NCBI GenBank assembly: GCA_012976225.1
Contig: JAAVVG010000007.1
Coordinates: forward strand, 620,001-684,000
Direction: 5' to 3'
DNA from: Golubevia sp. BC0850
Taxonomy: Eukaryota > Basidiomycota > Exobasidiomycetes > Golubeviales > Golubeviaceae
DNA: 64,000 nucleotides
Positions within the stretch are counted from its first letter, which is position 1, and each line of letters starts with the position of its first letter. Made by a program: the position numbers and the translations under genes. The notes below the pieces were generated by a model that did not search any database, was not told where the DNA came from, and worked only from the letters and a program-made list of their open reading frames with translations. Below are positions 41,605 through 57,797 of the stretch, piece by piece.

Positions 41605-43915
41605 ATGTCTTCTTTCGATAGCTGGCAATCGCCTCTCTCTGGGTGAGTCAACTTTCAATTTCAATTTCATACACCCAGCTCAGCTAGGCTCAGGTCAGAC
41701 TGAAGGAAAGGCATTTCATCATCAGCTTAACCTTTCTTCTAACCTCAAACTTTCTCCCTCACTTTCAGACGTTATGCCTCCAAAGAAATGTCTTCTCTTT
41801 TCTCAAACGCTGTAAGTGAAAACATTCCATTTGCATCTCCTCTGCTTGATTCTACCTCTAATCTTCCTCCAACTCTTTCCTATCCTATCCTATCCTTTAC
41901 TATCTTCTTCCTGTCTCTTCTCAGACTCGTTTCAGCACCTGGCGTCAACTCTGGCTAAACCTAGCCATCGCAGAGAAAGAATTAGGTTTAGAAATTCCAG
42001 ATGAAGCCATCACTCAGATGAAAGCCAATCTAGTCAGTGTTAATCACAAATCAGAGGGAACGATAGAGAACCTTTTCCACTTTCCTTTGGGAGTTTCTCG
42101 ACTTTGTTCTGACTGAGCCCTCTCCTGGTCCTCCTATTCGACTTCTTCAATCTGGATCCATCCGAATATTCTAGACTTTGGACGCTCCTCAAATGGAAGC
42201 TGCTGCTGAGGAAGAAAAGAAAAGACGTCATGATGTTATGGCTCATGTTCATGTTTTCGGAACTGTCTGTCCCGCTGCTGCTCCTTTCATTCAGTGAGTA
42301 GAAAGTTGACTTCCATAGGACTCTTGCAATATGATCTAGGGTGGTTGAACAAGATAGTTGGACGTCCAGAAGTACTTTAGGAGCTGAAAGAGCTACACAA
42401 TCTGGGGAAAGAAGTTAGAGCCCTACTTTCCTCCCCCCCCCCCATAATCACCTAAATTCCCTCGATAGAACCCAAGAAATTTGAAATTGAATATCTTCTT
42501 ACAATCCAACAGTCTCGGTGCCACTTCCTGTTACGTAACCGACAACGGTAAGTCATCCCAAGTCCTACTCTGTTCAAGAAATAAATTCTCATCCCCCTCT
42601 TTCCTTTTAAATTTCTCTCAGCCGACTTGATCTTCCTAAGATCAGCACTAGATCTTCTTCTTCCTAAGTTAGCTCTAGTAATTCATCGTCTAGCAGCCTT
42701 CGCAGATCAATACAAGGATCTACCAACTCTAGGATTCACCCACATGCAGCCAGCTCAACTTACCACAGTTGGCAAGAGAGCTACTCTTTGGATTCAAGAA
42801 TTGCTTTGGGATTTGAGAAACATTACTAGAGCTAGAGATGATTTGGGTTTTAGAGGTGTGAAGGGGACTACTGGAACTCAAGCTAGTTTCTTACAGTTGT
42901 TTGATGGAGATCATGATAAGGTGAGTAGGTGACTTAGAGAGCTCAGTAAGTTGAAAATCTTCTGAAAACTTGGATTCAGAACCTGATTGTTTTTGTCTCT
43001 CTTGGCTCTACTTCGAATCAGGTCGAAGCTCTAGATGAAAGAGTCACCTCTCTTTTCAATTTCCCTTACGCCATGCCAGTTTGTGGTCAAACCTACTCTC
43101 GTAAAATTGACGTTGATGTTCTTTCATCGTTAGCTTCTTTCTCAGCTTCAGCTTTGAAAATGGCGACCGATATCAGATTACTCTGTCATTTAAAGGAAAT
43201 TGAAGAACCATTCGAGAAAGATCAAATCGGTTCAAGTGCGATGGCTTATAAGAGAAATCCAATGAGAAGTGAAAGGGTTTGTGGATTAGCTAGGTGGTTA
43301 GGCAACACTTTGGGAAGTGCTAGAGAGACTGCTGGTGGACAGTGGATGGAGAGAACTTTGGATGATAGGTGAGTATAGGTCGAGTGAGAGAGAGAGAGAG
43401 AGCACTGGCGGAGGCTTGAGAACTGACATCGCATTCTTTGACTCGTTCATTGCAGTGCCAATCGTCGTATGACTCTTCCAGAATCTTTCCTTACAGCTGA
43501 TGTTCTTTTAACTCTACTTCAAAACATCTCTGAAGGGTTAGTAGTCTACCCTGCCATCATCGCTCGTCACATCGCAGCTGAACTTCCATTCATGGCCACT
43601 GAGAATGTTATCATGGCTATGGTTCGAGCAGGTGGAGATAGACAAATTTGTCATGAAAGGATCAGAGTCCTTTCTCATCAAGCTGCAAAAGTTGTAAAGG
43701 AAGAAGGAGGTGAAAACGATTTGATCGAAAGAATTAAGAAAGACGATTATTTCCAACCTATCGTTTCTAGATTGGATCAACTTTTAGAACCTAAAAGTTT
43801 CACTGGTAGAGCTGAACAACAGGTGGAAAGCTTTTTGAAAAAATGGGTCAATCCGGCTTTGGAACCTTTTCAGGAAAGTATTAAGAAAGCTACTAAGGCT
43901 GAACTTTCGGTTTAG
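41605..43915 (+). CDS. ADE13: adenylosuccinate lyase
   Basis: Eight exons (41605-41642, 41769-41811, 41925-42032, 42175-42293, 42513-42547, 42622-42920, 43022-43368, 43456-43915) give 482 aa, the length of yeast Ade13. It cleaves succinyl-AICAR and adenylosuccinate, releasing fumarate, in two steps of purine synthesis. Key motifs are [10 protein letters not shown] and [12 protein letters not shown] (first active-site regions), [19 protein letters not shown] with the catalytic His, and the fumarase-superfamily signature [17 protein letters not shown] with the flexible catalytic Ser loop. C-terminal helices read [26 protein letters not shown] repeat lies in intron 2. One donor is GTCAGT (after NL in exon 3), weaker than its neighbours. 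Confidence 0.95.
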
Positions 43916-50296: not shown

Positions 50297-53200
50297 CTAC
50301 GAACCGTAATTCGGTAGATCGTCAGCCTCGACATAAGGCGCCTGTTAGTGAGAAAAGGGAAAGAAAGGTGAGTCAGTGTGTCGTGCTCGTCCCGGAGCCA
50401 GATGTCTCGCTCGCCAGTCCATTCGATTCCACAAGAAATTCACCTTAGGATGAGGATGAGCTGGATCGAAGGGACCAACTTTGTTCTTCTCAGCGTTGCA
50501 GCCTTCGATAGAGTTCCTGGGCCAATACTGTCCATAACCTCCTACCGAAGGATCCTGTCCCCAGAACTGGAGCTGAGCGTTGTTGTAGGCGTCTGGATGT
50601 CTTTGGATGTAGTCGTTGGTAGGGTAATCTTCTGGATCACATCCAATGTTGATAGCATCGGAAGGCTGGTAGACTCGAACTATGAGAGCAAGGGAGAAAG
50701 AAGGTCAGTGGACGACCGCAGATTGCTTAATTCGAGGACCTAAACTCACCCCAATCAACCGCCATGGTGTTGGGCCATGTTAGTTCGGCCTGAAAAAAGA
50801 GTGGCAAAAGAAATGAAGATAGCGTCAGCACGAGTGTCGCGAGCATCTATCCTGTTCTATTGCTGTTTTCCGCAGAGACGGAGAATTTCAAATGTTTCTT
50901 CGATTCTGCGAATTATGAAGACTTACGAAGTTCTGAAAGGGGTGAAAAGGGAAGGGCAATCGGAATCAAGGAAGGAGGGGAAGATAGAAGAGTCAGAATC
51001 GAAAGCGACACCGCCGCCCAAATGTCACACGCTTCTTTATTGGCGAGGCTCACCGGTGTTCCAAAAGATTGTCTGCAGCGATTGGAGAGGGAGGAGGAGG
51101 AGGAGTGAGTGAGAAATGACGGACGGGAAAAAGGATGGTCCAGAGACAGCCCCTCGGAAGACCCGCCTGTCAATGCATCACCTCTTACGGCACTCACGAG
51201 ATTCCGAGATTGAAAATGATGTACACTGAGAGAGAGGGCGAAGGCGGGAGAGAAAGGAATCGATGGTCAGTGATTGGTCTTGGTCGATGGGGCGTAGAAG
51301 ACTGTGGCTTAGACTTACTTGGCTCGGATGCCATCACACGATTCGAAATCTGTGAGATTGGATCGGCTGCGAGACCATATTTGGTGAGAGTCCAGGCTGG
51401 AGTTCCATCGTTTACCCAGGTCGCTTCTCCGTCTTTGCCTGGTGGAAGTCAAAATTTATGAGAATCGGAAGAGAAGAAAAGGAAGACAAGCGACGACAGC
51501 GAAAATAGGATGGAAAGAGAAAAGAGAAGTAGGAAAGAGAGAGGAACGAGGTGGAGATGAGTAAATGGTGGTCGCGAGAGTCGATGAAAGTCAAGCTTCG
51601 ACGAGACCCCCATAGCTTCAAAACTCAGATGGAGACTGACCAGTGGTATATTCCACACCGTAGGTGGCGAAGTTTCTGGGAAAAGAGAAACACAAGACAG
51701 TCAGGAAGAGCCCAGACGAAATAAACACAAGACAGTCAGGAAGAGCCCAGACGAAATAACCTTTTCGAAGCAGCAACGACGTCACAAATTTAGACTCACC
51801 CTCCAGGATCCGTTCCATCAGTACTACCTTTCTCAGTCACACCATCAGGAGCATCAGACACGACTGAAGTAGATTGTTGGTAAGCTGCACCTTTGTAACT
51901 GTTGACCTGAGTGATGTCGTTGTTGTTGATGATGATAGCAGGTCCAGAAGTGTTCGAGAAGGTGTAGAGATTGTTGAAGGGAGCACTCTGGAATGATTGA
52001 GAAAGTTGCATGACTTGACCTCTTCCTGCAAAGCTGTTTCCGACTAAAGGGGAGATAGTTGAAATTTGAATTGGTAGGTTACATCTCTTTCGAAGTCAGC
52101 ACGTCTAACTCTCCAACGCCCTTCACCTCCTCCTTCCTATACTTACCCTGAGATTCGAAGACATCGATTTCAGGAGAAGCCCTTCCTTTGAACTTTCCGT
52201 TGACCTTTGGACCTGAGAGGACGAAATGGAGGAGTACAGAGAGGCGTCGAGAAGCGAAGGTCAGTCACGATGAGAAAAGATTCGAAATGGTAATAGATGC
52301 TTATGCCCTCAAAGAGTGGATTCTTCGCAGATACTGACCAGGATGATCCTGCGAAAGTGAGAAGAAGACGGAAGAAGACGGAAGAAGAGAGAAGAAGACA
52401 GATCGTTAGATTTCGGGCTTGCAGAGCGCAAAGTCGGTTCAATGTGGAGATCCACGTTTCGTTAGCAATAGCTGTTACGAGATTCAGTGTGGCTCTAACT
52501 CACCTCTCCGTCGCAAGTACAAGCACTCAAACGTTGCCCATTCAACCAGGAAAGACTTGAGGTGTGATACTGTCTATTGAAAGCGACTTCTCCTCCTTTG
52601 GCATTAGAGGTGGGAACTCCTTGATACGTGGTTTGATTCTCAAGTGTTCCTACGTCACATTCTTCGTAGGAGTATGGCCACAGTCCTTCCAAGGAAGCTC
52701 CGTATCCGGCTCTACCTAGATTTCCCATCATCCAGAAAGCAGGCCATAGACCTGCCACGTCTGAGAAACCAGGAAGTCTAACAGAAGCTTCTAAGTAACC
52801 TCCAGTGAAGCAGAACTTGTTCCTGAGATGAGAATTAAAGAATGGAGTCAATCTGAAAAGATTACGACTCAAAGAGAAGAATCGTTTCATTGTATAGGTC
52901 CACGGGACAGGTTGTCTGATGTTCTCGTCGAATTCGAAGCACTTACCAGGATTGGAGCATTCCTCCTCTGAAGTTCTTTTTCTGCAGGAGAGAAGAGAGG
53001 AAGAGGAGAGAGGAAGAGGAGAGAGGAGGAAGCTCGCGTCAGAAGATTGTCTGAAGTAGCAGGCTTTGATTCAAAACTCACGTGGTCTTCGGTCTCGCTC
53101 AAAGTGATTTGTAAGAATCCATCAGCTGTAGTAATGGCAGCTGGGTCGTACCTACGAAGGGAGAAAAGAAAGGGGGAGTGAAAAGGTCAGTAAGAGCTGA

Positions 53201-54615
53201 CTCCTCGAAGGTTCCTTACTCCGCTACAGAGAGGTGGCCAATGGCCTAGATACGCACCACTCGTAATTTTGTGTTCCCTGAAATGTTTGAAATGCGAGGA
53301 GGGAAACGAGGAGAGATTGCGGGTCAGAAGGAAGATCGCAAGGACAAGACGAAGGAAAGAATAACCTCGAGCTGGATCCTAGTAGCAACGTACCCAGTAC
53401 TGTTTGAAGGAACAGAAATAGAAAATAACAGGTGAAAGAGAGGGAGAGTCAAAGAAAGGGAAAAGGTTAGCAATGAACAGACGAAGGCTTGATGAGGGAG
53501 AGCAAGAGCTGCTGTTCGACTACTCACCCAGAGATCAACAGCTTCCCAGAATGGATCGTCACCCGGATAGAAAGAACGTCCATCGGTATTGAACTCATCT
53601 GAGAAGACCAGCTTGAATTTGGTCTTTCCATCTACTCCAGTACGGGTCATAGCATCTGCAGGAGTCTCTGGATCGATCAAATTCGGTAGATCTGGAAGAC
53701 TTGGGATTTGTCCACTAGAATTTGTTCCTCCTAAGTTGCTTCCACCTTTCGTTGACGTCGTTCGATTGAGAGCATCGATGATTGGATAACCAGCAAAGAG
53801 TAAAAGTAGAGCAACGGCTAGAACTGCTAGAAGTCCCACGTTAAGAATGGCTCTAACAGGGAACCCATTCGAGAGCCAACTTCCATGAACTTTGGCATCC
53901 CTCGGATCGTGGAGCCAGTCATCGTTCTCAGTGGTGGTCATCCAAGCCGGTTGAGCTGGACCACTGAATTCTCCCGAAGAGTTGTTAGAGGTTGAGTAAG
54001 GCATGGCGTTGGATTGTGACCTGGGGTCCAGCTTCTCTGATAGAATTGGCATAGTTCCTCTTGAAGAAGGCTTGGGTCTCACCGAAGATGGTTTAGAAGA
54101 AGACTGATAATTTGAGAGAATCGAATAATGAGGACGAGTCAGCGACTTGAGATGGTGGGGAAATTCTATTGATCGTGATTTTGATCTTTTTTCTTCCAGT
54201 TGTTCTAACAAATCCTTTTGCCTTCGAATGAGCCTCGTCGAAAGAGGGAAGAGAAAAGCTCCTATTGGAGTAGAGGACATAGCCCACCATCACCACCCTC
54301 TCCCTCTCTATCCGCCGGTCTCTTCCTACCAGCGCGCGTATTGGCCAATCTGCAGTTCCAGCACGCGGAATCCAATGTTGGACAGGAGCATCGTCCACAG
54401 GTTCTCAGAGAGATGACCTACCGATGCGAAGAAATCGACTGATTCACTGATCTGCACTGCAAACTCTCTCCCCTCTACCCAGGACCCCTTCTACTTTCGA
54501 TACTCACAATGTAGGACCCAGTCTCATCGCTTCCAATTCCCTCATTACTCTCTGATGAACCACCAAACAGCCTCACATTCTCTGCCGAATGGATAGGTTC
54601 GTAGCGCGATGCCAT
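50297..54615 (-). CDS. SKN1: beta-1,6-glucan synthesis protein, SKN1/KRE6 family (GH16)
   Basis: I resolve 17 exons (minus strand, 5' to 3'): 54508-54615, 53528-54103, 53394-53399, 53258-53277, 53082-53151, 52947-52981, 52504-52822, 52339-52348, 52147-52212, 51800-52043, 51641-51675, 51319-51438, 51198-51225, 51054-51072, 50750-50789, 50444-50679, 50297-50341. All phases agree, giving 658 aa. A short cytosolic N terminus is followed by one membrane segment (NVGLLAVLAVALLLLFAGYP), the type II topology of Kre6/Skn1 in the Golgi. The GH16-like lumenal domain carries PFWEAVDLW, YDPAAITTADGFLQITLSE, GLWPAFWMMGNLGR and the acidic motif RASPEIDVFE. The tail has AVDWVRVYQPSDAINIGCDP, typical of the family. 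Several introns are unusually placed, leaving exons of 6, 20, 10 and 19 nt. Confidence 0.92.
51688..51757 (+). repeat. 35-bp perfect tandem duplication in a SKN1 intron
   Basis: A 35-nt unit beginning AAACACAAGACAGTCAGGAA occurs twice head to tail in the intron between the tenth and eleventh SKN1 exons. The copies look identical, which suggests a recent slip. Confidence 0.92.
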
Positions 54616-56124
54616 CTATTGGATGTGTGCTAGTGTAGGCGCTTCTAGGTTGGGTATTGAATTAGTTGAGCTCTTGCTCTATTGTGATATGAAGTTGAGT
54701 AAAAGTAGAGCTTGAGTCAAGGATGAGGAATCTAAGAAGAAGGTTGATTTGGATGATGAATCGATGATGATGAAGGAACGCTTGATGATGATTTGGAAGG
54801 AGCAAACACACATCGCCGAAGGCAGAACAGAGTGCCTACGGAAGACCGTACCTCAACGCCATACATACTGTTGAATACGTTGAATCGACAGATGGACTAA
54901 ACTGGTATCTGATAAGTGGTACATCTTGATTTATTTTCTTTCTATTCCAGACGCACTTTGCTTTGACTTTCCATGCTTCTCCTTCGTCACAAGCTCTTCA
55001 AGCTTCAAGAGGCATTCCCCCTCCCAATGCCTCTATGCCAGTGGAGTCAGAAGGATGAAGTGGTGCGTTCTTGAAGCTTGAATTCCATTTACTCTTCCAC
55101 AAACTGAAATCGCCTCGAGCTTCGAAGAGTTCAACACTTTGAACACTTCTCCCTTCACAAATCGATGGATTCCAGTTACATCATTTCTCGAGGATCCTCT
55201 GTCGCCCTACGAGCCTTGGAAAACCCAAAGTTCTCATTAGCTTCCTCTTGAATCCAACTCTAGGACTTTCGTTCTCCAACCGGCCTTTATGGCAAGAGAG
55301 ATAAGATCAGACAAACGAGGCTGGAGTCGCGGTGCCCTTTGCAATTCCCCTTCCTTTTTGGTCAGTCTCTTTTTTTCTAGATTTTCAGAGACAGATGCTT
55401 CGTTCTCGCTTCTTGACTCCCTCGGGCGCTTCTTCTCAGACCTGTAGGCTCGGCGCGAAGGAAGACATGAAGTAAGAAGTCTCACCCCTGATTTAAGATC
55501 CAGTCACTCATCCCGCGACTCCAATGTGATCCTCTGTTGCTCAAGATAAATCTGAAAACCAAAACAAGGGCTCTGATGAACTTCGTTCGGATTTGCCACC
55601 TGATCAGTTTTCTGAGTTTCACTTGTTTGCTCTTGTGTTTCTGTGCATGCTACGGACCGCACTCGTCTCCAATCACATCTTCAAGATACGTTAGGCCCTT
55701 TTTTCAATTAGGCGAGCTCGCGCTCCAGTGATCACTACTGCTAACGGATAAAAATCGGTGGACCGATTGAGGACTTTCATGAAATCGCCACCCTTCAATA
55801 ACGGTCACTCCCTTCTCTCTCCCCTGACAACCGGCCTGGGGCCAAATCTTGAGGTTGCCTCAATTGAGCATTTATTGTGGCTTTAGACCAGGTTAGGTCT
55901 CGCTTGACTCAACGAAAATCAGACCCGATCTCATCGTCAAGGGATAGAATGCCTCACAAGTCGTCACGCAGGAACGAAGCTATACTCCCTATTCAGGTGA
56001 TTCTCAGGGATTGGACTCTGTCCAATTGACGACGACCTTTGTCCGGATCTTGTATATAAAGAGAGAGAAACAGTTGGAGTCACTTTTCGTTCCCCCATCT
56101 TCTTCTCTCTCTCTTCGCATCAAC
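54616..56124. promoter_or_regulatory. divergent intergenic region, SKN1 and pectin lyase, with TATA box
   Basis: About 1.5 kb between two divergent genes. TATATAAA at 56053-56060 lies 65 nt before the pectin lyase ATG, an ideal TATA box for a regulated gene. The nearer SKN1 side has no clear box. Short open frames in the middle have no coding signal that I recognise. Confidence 0.6.
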
Positions 56125-57797
56125 ATGCTCTCCAAATCTCTTCTATCAAGTCTCGGCCTCCTACTTCTATCTTCTTTCTCTCAAATTCAAGCTGCTGGAG
56201 TCACTGGTCAAGCTTATGGGTACGCAAAAGGTACCACTGGTGGAGGGAACGCCACTCCCGTCTATCCCACGACTAGTGAGTCAAAGATACTTTGCCTTCT
56301 CTTTCTTTCGCTTCTCGACTAACTGACCATAAACTCATCTTCTTTTACCTCTCACAGCTGCTCAACTCACTTCATACCTAACCGACAGCTCCCCTAGAGT
56401 AATCATGTTGGATCGTACCTTCGACTATGGAGCTGCTGAAGGAACTTGTAACTCCTGCGCTGGGTGTAAACCCTCCTCCTATACCTGTGGATCTAGCGGT
56501 CAGCTTGCCATCGCTTCTGGAACTTGGTGCAACAGCTACCCATCTCAATCCATCACTTATGAGAAGGCTGGGATTTCTAGTATCACTGTTAAGTCCAACA
56601 AAAGTCTCGTCGGAGTTGGATCCAAGGGCGTTATCAAAGGCAAAGGGTTAAGATTTGTTAGCGGTGTCTCTAACATCATCGTTCAAAACGTTCACATCAC
56701 TGATTTGAACCCAGAGTACATTTGGTGAGTGACGCAAAGTAGGAGTTGAGAAATCTGTCACTGATGCGTCTCTCTTCCACTTTCTTTCTTTTTTAGGGGT
56801 GGGGATGCATTAACCCTCGATGGTAGTAGTAAAATTTGGATCGATCGAGTTACGACTAGTCTAATTGGTCGTCAGCACATTGTCTTTGGTAGGTTGCCTC
56901 TTGCTTCATCTCAAGCTCGATCTCCTTTTACTGAGCTCAAAGTGCTCCACCCTTTTCTTCTTCCTATTTTCTTTCCCATTTTGTTTCTTGTCTTATCCAC
57001 TCTCTCAGGATACGGACAGTGAGTGCTCCCGCCATCAGAGAGTGGGAAATAAGAGAGGTTCCAAAATTTGTGTTGTTGACGACTGACTGAACCACCCCCC
57101 TCTCTCTCTCTCCTTCCCCCAGAAATCAACAGGTCACCATTTCTAATCATCATTTTAGTGGAAAGACATCAAATTCTGCTAGTTGCGACGGTCGTCATTA
57201 CTGGACTCTACGTACGTGTTCTAGAAAAGTCTTCAAATTGATTCGTCACTAACTCTGCCTTTCCCTTTCTCAATAGTCATGTACGGATCCAATGACTACA
57301 TCACCATATTTGCCAGCTGGTTTGACCAAGTCTCGGGCCGCTCTCCAAAGATTGGCTACAGTAAGTAAAGAGGAGCCTCAAAGCTAGAACCTCCAAGCAG
57401 TCTCTCACTTTTTTTCTCTTCTTCTTCTTCTTCTTCATCATCAGCCAACCGTGTACACATGCTCAACAACCTATGGACCAACACCGGATCGTACTCCTTC
57501 GCTTTGGATGTTGAAGACTCTTCTCATCTTCTCCTGGAAGGAAACGTTTTCGACAACGTCCCACGTCCTTATGTCAAAGCTTCATCTCCAGGAAAGATCT
57601 TTGCTCCAACTTCAGCCTCATCATCCTGCTCTTCTGTCTTTGGAAGAAATTGCGTAGCTAACACCTTTACCGGCGGTTCACCTTCCTTCTCTGTAGGGGA
57701 TTCAATCATTTCAGATTTCAACAACGCTGATTCTCCCAACCCTTTGTCAAATGTTGCTTCAAGTGTCAAAAGCTGGGCCGGTTTCGGAAAGATTTAA
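56125..57797 (+). CDS. secreted pectin lyase (polysaccharide lyase family 1)
   Basis: Seven exons (56125-56275, 56358-56724, 56797-56888, 57009-57018, 57123-57211, 57277-57360, 57445-57797) give 381 aa, all in phase. A signal peptide, [12 protein letters not shown], is followed by a short Gly/Thr-rich segment and a Cys-rich loop ([15 protein letters not shown]). The parallel beta-helix core matches Aspergillus pectin lyases: [57 protein letters not shown], and SGRSPK with the catalytic Arg. Such enzymes split methylated pectin by beta-elimination outside the cell. The fourth exon is only 10 nt (GATACGGACA). A TATA box and a short leader suggest a strongly regulated promoter. Confidence 0.93.

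Follow-up and report, generated by a model that had tools for sequence, protein, structure and literature searches.

In this study, we describe a gene of the SKN1/KRE6 family on the minus strand (54615 to 50297) of a 64,000-nucleotide (nt) stretch of the Golubevia sp. BC0850 genome (contig C62, positions 620001-684000). This stretch is called the window here and supplies all coordinates for which no other contig is named; the genome comprises 25.8 Mb in 64 contigs. Rebuilt exon by exon, the gene has 18 exons and 17 introns, reads through 660 codons in an intact frame and includes five exons of 6, 20, 10, 19 and 6 nt. The exon borders fit the coding sequence, microexons are conserved among paralogs of the same genome, and unbroken counterparts exist in sister genes. 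We consider it highly probable that this predicted SKN1/KRE6-type gene for cell-wall beta-glucan is functional, that its five microexons are constitutive, that its splicing is intron-defined and that the tiny exons derive from closely placed introns. SKN1/KRE6 proteins are membrane proteins with a GH16-like fold and a role in beta-1,6-glucan synthesis. The encoded protein matches PF03935 (SKN1/KRE6/Sbg1) with 601 bits (residues 91-625, profile positions 5-497 of 501), in agreement with the family named in the original prediction; a hydrophobic stretch was seen by eye in its N-terminal part, and GH16 matches among solved structures were weak (best E 1e-7). The original prediction had listed 17 exons and 658 codons in agreeing phases, with four tiny exons of 6, 20, 10 and 19 nt. 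All four are present with GT donors and pyrimidine-rich AG acceptors, and the phases do agree; a second 6-nt exon (AACTTC, 50932-50927) had been overlooked and adds two codons. The gene had also been treated as singular, whereas it is one of 14 modelled paralogs. The observation is therefore confirmed and was too modest, and the interpretation attached to it is partly supported.

Both 6-nt exons are in phase 0 and have canonical borders, with a complete donor and acceptor on each flanking intron. Exon 3 (53394-53399, TACTGG) encodes YW and is supported by spliced alignment, protein homologs, shuffled sequences, the paralogs L010 and L018 and unbroken paralog DNA. Exon 15 (50927-50932, AACTTC) encodes NF between introns of 121 and 137 nt and is supported by homolog spacing, spliced alignment, shuffled sequences and the paralogs L010 and L017. 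Homologs, spliced alignment and shuffles likewise support the 20-nt exon 4 (53258-53277, GTQNYEW) and the 19-nt exon 14 (51054-51072, SQSFGTP), both of which occur identically in L010, as well as the 10-nt exon 8 (52339-52348, GATCATCCTG, DHPG). The homolog set consisted of 120 listed KRE6 matches, with identity of at most 60% among the matches listed. YW is present in 113 of these 120 proteins. At the NF site the two-residue spacing is kept in 120/120 and the residues vary, the commonest pairs being DL (28), DF (24) and DW (23). The exon 8 site reads DHPG in 43 homologs and SHPG in 50, and its length is equal in 111/120. Among solved GH16 structures, chain 5wut gives a weak match (14.4 bits) that crosses the NF site without a gap, and chain 7kr6 aligns poorly there, with insertions nearby.

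The borders were compared with a spliced alignment against a profile of the 120 aligned homologs, from which the query gene was left out. The program sets no limit on exon size; each intron costs 14 bits, offset by splice-site scores. Between the exon 2 donor and the exon 17 acceptor the alignment returned borders identical to the chain and recovered both 6-nt exons. Its splice matrices were afterwards re-estimated from 87 introns with both neighbouring exons of at least 45 nt, so that the microexons had no part in the training. Dinucleotide shuffles of each intron-exon-intron segment were then scored with the outer signals kept (300 runs per exon), and for each of the eight exons of at most 35 nt none of the 300 shuffles reached the real score. 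The YW exon scored 166.1 against a shuffle maximum of 153.8, and the NF exon 61.5 against 49.6. Internal exons no longer than 35 nt did turn up in the shuffles, in as many as 273/300 runs for one 35-nt exon, but none of these runs attained the real score. We also built 280 pseudo-genes from the 14 family genes, with microexons fused and the remaining introns shuffled; with no piece lacking, the method rarely invented short exons, and internal exons of at most 20 nt made up 2/2182 in these and 30/190 in the real genes. Both 6-nt exons were predicted as well by a simple ab initio finder that uses no homology, although it takes its codon usage and splice matrices from the SKN1/KRE6 family; these matrices, too, draw solely on introns between exons of 45 nt or more.

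We regard the paralogs as the strongest evidence short of RNA. The 14 modelled SKN1/KRE6 members are the window gene and the loci L009-L021; a midpoint-rooted tree that included 29 of the 120 homologs places 11 of the 14 in a clade free of outside sequences (support 100/99). Of the 190 internal exons in the conserved part of the 14 genes, 63 do not exceed 51 nt; 30 of these are no longer than 20 nt, and 12 no longer than 10 nt. The 14 genes have 204 introns with a median length of 92 nt, 201 starting with GT and 3 with GC. Exons of at most 20 nt occur in nine of the genes and are absent from L009, L011, L012, L013 and L021. The YW exon is 6 nt long with the same borders in the window gene, L010 and L018, and 7 nt long in L017 and L020; the 6-nt NF exon of the window gene recurs with the same borders in L010 and L017. 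Exons of 9 nt and 12 nt are common to L014 and L015, a recent pair. Several paralogs lack some of the introns that flank microexons, and L009 lacks both pairs around the 6-nt exons. Once spliced, exons 2, 3 and 4 align with unbroken paralog DNA in one gapless block of 101 nt (81% with L009, 74% with L011). Exons 14, 15 and 16 (19+6+40) sum to 65 nt, the exact size of a single L009 exon, and exons 13 to 16 sum to 93 nt, the exact size of a single L020 exon. To judge from these comparisons, the sister genes indicate that the tiny exons are real and old.

We compared 59 introns adjacent to exons no longer than 20 nt with 88 introns whose neighbours are both at least 45 nt long. Median lengths were 96 and 93.5 nt (p = 0.19), mean donor scores 4.81 and 5.66 (p = 0.12), and acceptor scores were equal (p = 0.90). 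Stronger splice sites beside the microexons were thus not seen in this comparison. Short introns that differ neither in length nor in donor or acceptor strength are what intron definition predicts. Of the two modes that the original prediction had offered, intron definition therefore fits; special enhancers found no support beyond a modest pyrimidine excess, discussed below. We infer that each intron would be recognised as a unit, its own donor being paired with its own acceptor. The two introns flanking a 6-nt exon would consequently be removed in separate events, and the exon itself would need no recognition. Tiny exons would arise when two introns end up a few bases apart, either by sliding or by insertion of a new intron, which in two sugar transporters is visibly a near copy of the adjacent one, and they would persist where the encoded residues are needed. 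Inclusion of the microexons in the mRNA is probably constitutive, given their conservation and the neighbouring microexons that would break the frame if skipped. Intron definition has reportedly been described in Schizosaccharomyces pombe (Romfo 2000, cited in PMC11121469), and the window gene would resemble that system in the proposed pairing of splice sites across introns.

Several observations weigh against this reading. Conservation beyond this genome was seen at the protein level only. The DNA of L010, the closest paralog, matches the window gene even across introns (72%), so that exons shared with L010 count for less than those shared with L017, L018 and L020. In the gapless-block comparison no paralog exceeded the print threshold for the NF stretch, so that the unbroken counterparts of the NF site rest on the exon-size sums, and DHPG matched L021 alone, in three blocks (79%); the YW site was the only one to give a single gapless block. 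When T was substituted for the 6 nt and the splice sites were kept, the loss was only 12.1 bits for YW and 4.3 bits for NF, and an exon was still called there. As this masking failed to displace the small exons, shuffles were used instead. Outside the family, the adenylosuccinate lyase gene ADE13 (window 41605-43915, plus strand) has eight exons, none of them under 35 nt; its first three coding exons measure 38, 43 and 108 nt and its smallest 35 nt. Of 37 DEAD-box matches, 13 fall within open frames that span 500 codons or more, the longest being 1332 codons. Together with ADE13 this means that many genes of this genome are not shattered. Two further points, the possible skipping of the 6-nt exons and the pyrimidine content of the introns beside microexons, belong to the alternatives considered next.

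Each 6-nt exon, being exactly 6 nt long and in phase 0, can be skipped without a frameshift. Both could thus be real and yet alternatively spliced cassettes, with skipping of YW or NF giving a second in-frame protein, as in animal neural microexons. We consider this unlikely. The positions are filled in homologs (YW and the NF spacing in the numbers given above), skipping of the neighbouring 20-, 10- and 19-nt exons, or of the 7-nt form found in L017 and L020, would cause a frameshift, and the splice sites are ordinary. A second alternative leaves inclusion as it is and changes the means: the tiny exons would be recognised through enhancers bound within the exon or through a dedicated factor (SRRM3/4-like or PRP40-dependent) in place of plain intron definition. 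In its favour, the pyrimidine fraction reaches 0.79 in introns next to exons of 20 nt or less, against 0.73 in the comparison introns (p = 8e-4), a difference found in one of four comparisons. FF-domain matches, which we take to be PRP40-like candidates, were found at C1:322465-323368 and C11:253971-254429. The SRRM_C profile had no match in the genome, but the control likewise matched nowhere. A 6-nt exon would presumably offer little room for an enhancer, donor, acceptor and length do not differ significantly, and PRP-40 has been described as a core U1 component (PMC8378409). We think a dedicated mechanism of this kind quite improbable.

That the gene model itself is at fault, with other true borders or a decaying gene and with tiny exons that are chance AG...GT matches, is very improbable. 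If a piece is missing, the alignment method may place very short exons that do not exist, as the shuffles with up to 273 such calls demonstrate. Nevertheless, no shuffle reached the real score of any of the eight exons, the same borders recur in paralogs, the YW site is gapless against unbroken paralog DNA, and the frame of 660 codons is intact. Hardly credible is a reading as stwintrons, known from fungi (PMC12403724, PMC7138796), in which intron, 6 nt and intron would form one complex intron removed in two nested reactions with the 6 nt discarded, since each half has a complete donor and acceptor, no splice element is interrupted, and the YW codons are conserved and unbroken in L009.

The remaining exons of the constitutive, intron-defined gene proposed here are longer. 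Exon 1 (54508-54615, 108 nt) begins with the start ATG and is N-terminal, upstream of the Pfam match; its border to exon 2 is tentative. Exon 2 (53528-54103, 576 nt) likely begins at the acceptor 54103, which was picked from several in-frame acceptors and makes intron 1 GT-AG; homologs merely suggest an acceptor at or upstream of 54070. Its donor, behind EAVDLW, is fixed by the spliced alignment. At the N-terminus, which lies outside the conserved domain, the spliced alignment and the ab initio finder each differ from the chain. Splice signals and spliced alignment define exons 5 (53082-53151, 70 nt), 7 (52504-52822, 319 nt), 10 (51800-52043, 244 nt), 12 (51319-51438, 120 nt) and 16 (50750-50789, 40 nt). 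Spliced alignment and shuffles support the two 35-nt exons 6 (52947-52981) and 11 (51641-51675), and the 28-nt exon 13 (51198-51225, MYIIFNLGIS) is supported by homologs, alignment and shuffles and is the same in L010. Exon 9 (52147-52212, 66 nt), placed by spliced alignment, carries EIDVFE, which we take to resemble the GH16 motif EIDxxE. Exon 17 (50444-50679, 236 nt) follows from the spliced alignment, which stops at 50510, and from the ab initio finder; exon 18 (50297-50341, 45 nt, stop TAG) was placed by splice signals and the stop, and here the gene end given by the ab initio finder differs. Introns 2 to 17 are all GT-AG and 70-202 nt long. Within intron 10 (51676-51799) a direct repeat of about 35 nt (ttatttcgtctgggctcttcctgactgtcttgtgtt) was seen by eye.

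An introner origin of the KRE6 introns was considered and rejected, as a DNA search with the whole gene found no copy in an unrelated gene. In this search, which scored 15 candidates and skipped simple repeats and very common words, the 30 matches were the gene itself, 28 places within the 13 paralog loci and, in addition, one short hit to part of exon 17 at C7:197267-197344. When 274 introns were compared all against all for matches of 22 nt or more, only the pairs L014/L015, L017/L018 and L024/L027 came up, along with two matches of 26 nt located at KRE6 column 266; this comparison was insensitive to the diverged similarity between the window gene and L010 that the whole-gene search shows.

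Other families were sampled at eight sugar-transporter loci, one further transporter, one other gene and ADE13. The same 2-nt exon, GT, occurs in the sugar transporters L024 (C22:1584000-1588300) and L027 (C22:1288400-1292800), where the next exon is 14 nt long. It contributes to the codon of a V that 113/119 homologs have, and in either gene none of 300 shuffles reached the real score. A third paralog, L030 (C10:250800-255000, score 1127), modelled without the shuffle test, has its 2-nt exon four bases upstream and again reads AFVC. In both genes the two introns around the 2-nt exon are nearly identical to each other (95% over 132 nt in L024, 88% over 114 nt in L027): here an intron has visibly been copied beside itself. 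In a tally restricted to L024 and L027 (score above 500; L022, L023, L025, L026, L028 and L029 were left out), 4 of 18 internal exons are at most 20 nt. L025 (C33:223800-228800, reverse strand), a more distant sugar transporter with a poorer profile match (317), has a possible 1-nt exon, T, with good splice signals and 0/300 shuffles at the real score, at this single locus. Some exon of at most 5 nt appeared in 100/300 shuffles for L024, 264/300 for L027 and 73/300 for L025, none of them at the real score; tiny exons are thus easily invented in these transporters. A stretch related to the transporter intron (82% over 104 nt) lies at C5:741430-741529 and is possibly a further copy in an unrelated gene, which by eye we took to encode a USP-type ubiquitin peptidase; the simplest GT-AG reading there seemingly breaks the frame. 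Elsewhere in the window, a pectin lyase-like gene (55779-57797, plus strand) contains an ab initio 10-nt exon at 57009-57018 that aligns gap-free with pectin lyases A and B (1idk, 1qcx), its residues not being conserved.

Among 120 listed ADE13 matches, with identity of at most 85% among those listed, Tilletia, Violaceomyces and Thecaphora come first; to judge by protein similarity the present fungus is related to these genera, and the closest listed relatives of both the KRE6 and the ADE13 protein come from fungi that we group as Ustilaginomycotina. It may be speculated, tentatively and at somewhat less than an even chance, that cell-wall and transporter families of a smut-related lineage carry coding microexons that are both old and numerous, the shortest of 2 nt or perhaps even 1 nt. 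These microexons would be born of introns copying themselves beside existing introns, and the introns would be removed by strictly intron-defined, ratchet-like splicing that knows no minimum exon length. Copying as a source of new introns is a likeness to ascomycete introner-like elements and stwintrons, seen here in the near copies among transporter introns; unlike introner-like elements, the KRE6 introns gave no copy in an unrelated gene in the whole-gene search, and for the transporter intron there is one possible copy (PMC4457414, PMC12403724, PMC9860276).

Microexons are known from plants, animals and basidiomycete P450 genes, and the interest of the present case is their frequency and their conservation among paralogs. 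Of mammalian coding exons, 94% exceed 51 nt (PMC4317164). In plants, conserved coding microexons of 1-15 nt have been described, of which the 1-nt exons of APC11 and VPS55 were confirmed by RNA-seq and RT-PCR (PMC8831610). Like these, the microexons described here are conserved between duplicates, absorbed into a larger exon where a copy is intronless and flanked by canonical introns; plant microexons are also often misannotated, a further likeness. Unlike them, they occur in a fungus and in an unrelated gene family and are predicted from DNA (PMC8831610). Closer by descent, P450 genes of the basidiomycete Phanerochaete chrysosporium also form a multigene family with tiny exons, down to 6 bp (two amino acids), with exons of at most 29 bp in 41 genes; what the available part of that account does not describe, and the present family has, is the retention of the same tiny exon across paralogs or its unbroken presence in a sister gene (PMC1184071). 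Experimental work on fungal microexons is limited (PMC11121469). The Trichoderma virens Xlr2 microexon resembles ours in making a needed coding contribution; it is alternatively spliced and regulatory, whereas the SKN1/KRE6 microexons are probably constitutive (PMC11121469). In a literature search by titles and the beginnings of abstracts, no description of microexons in SKN1/KRE6 genes was found.

Exons of 6 nt, and of 2 nt in the transporters, probe the minimum exon size where the spliceosome recognises introns rather than exons, and a natural experiment is provided by a single genome in which some sister genes have the flanking introns and others lack them. Ordinary gene annotation could easily overlook these microexons, and gene models or short-read alignments that skip them would yield truncated or altered enzymes of the SKN1/KRE6 family.

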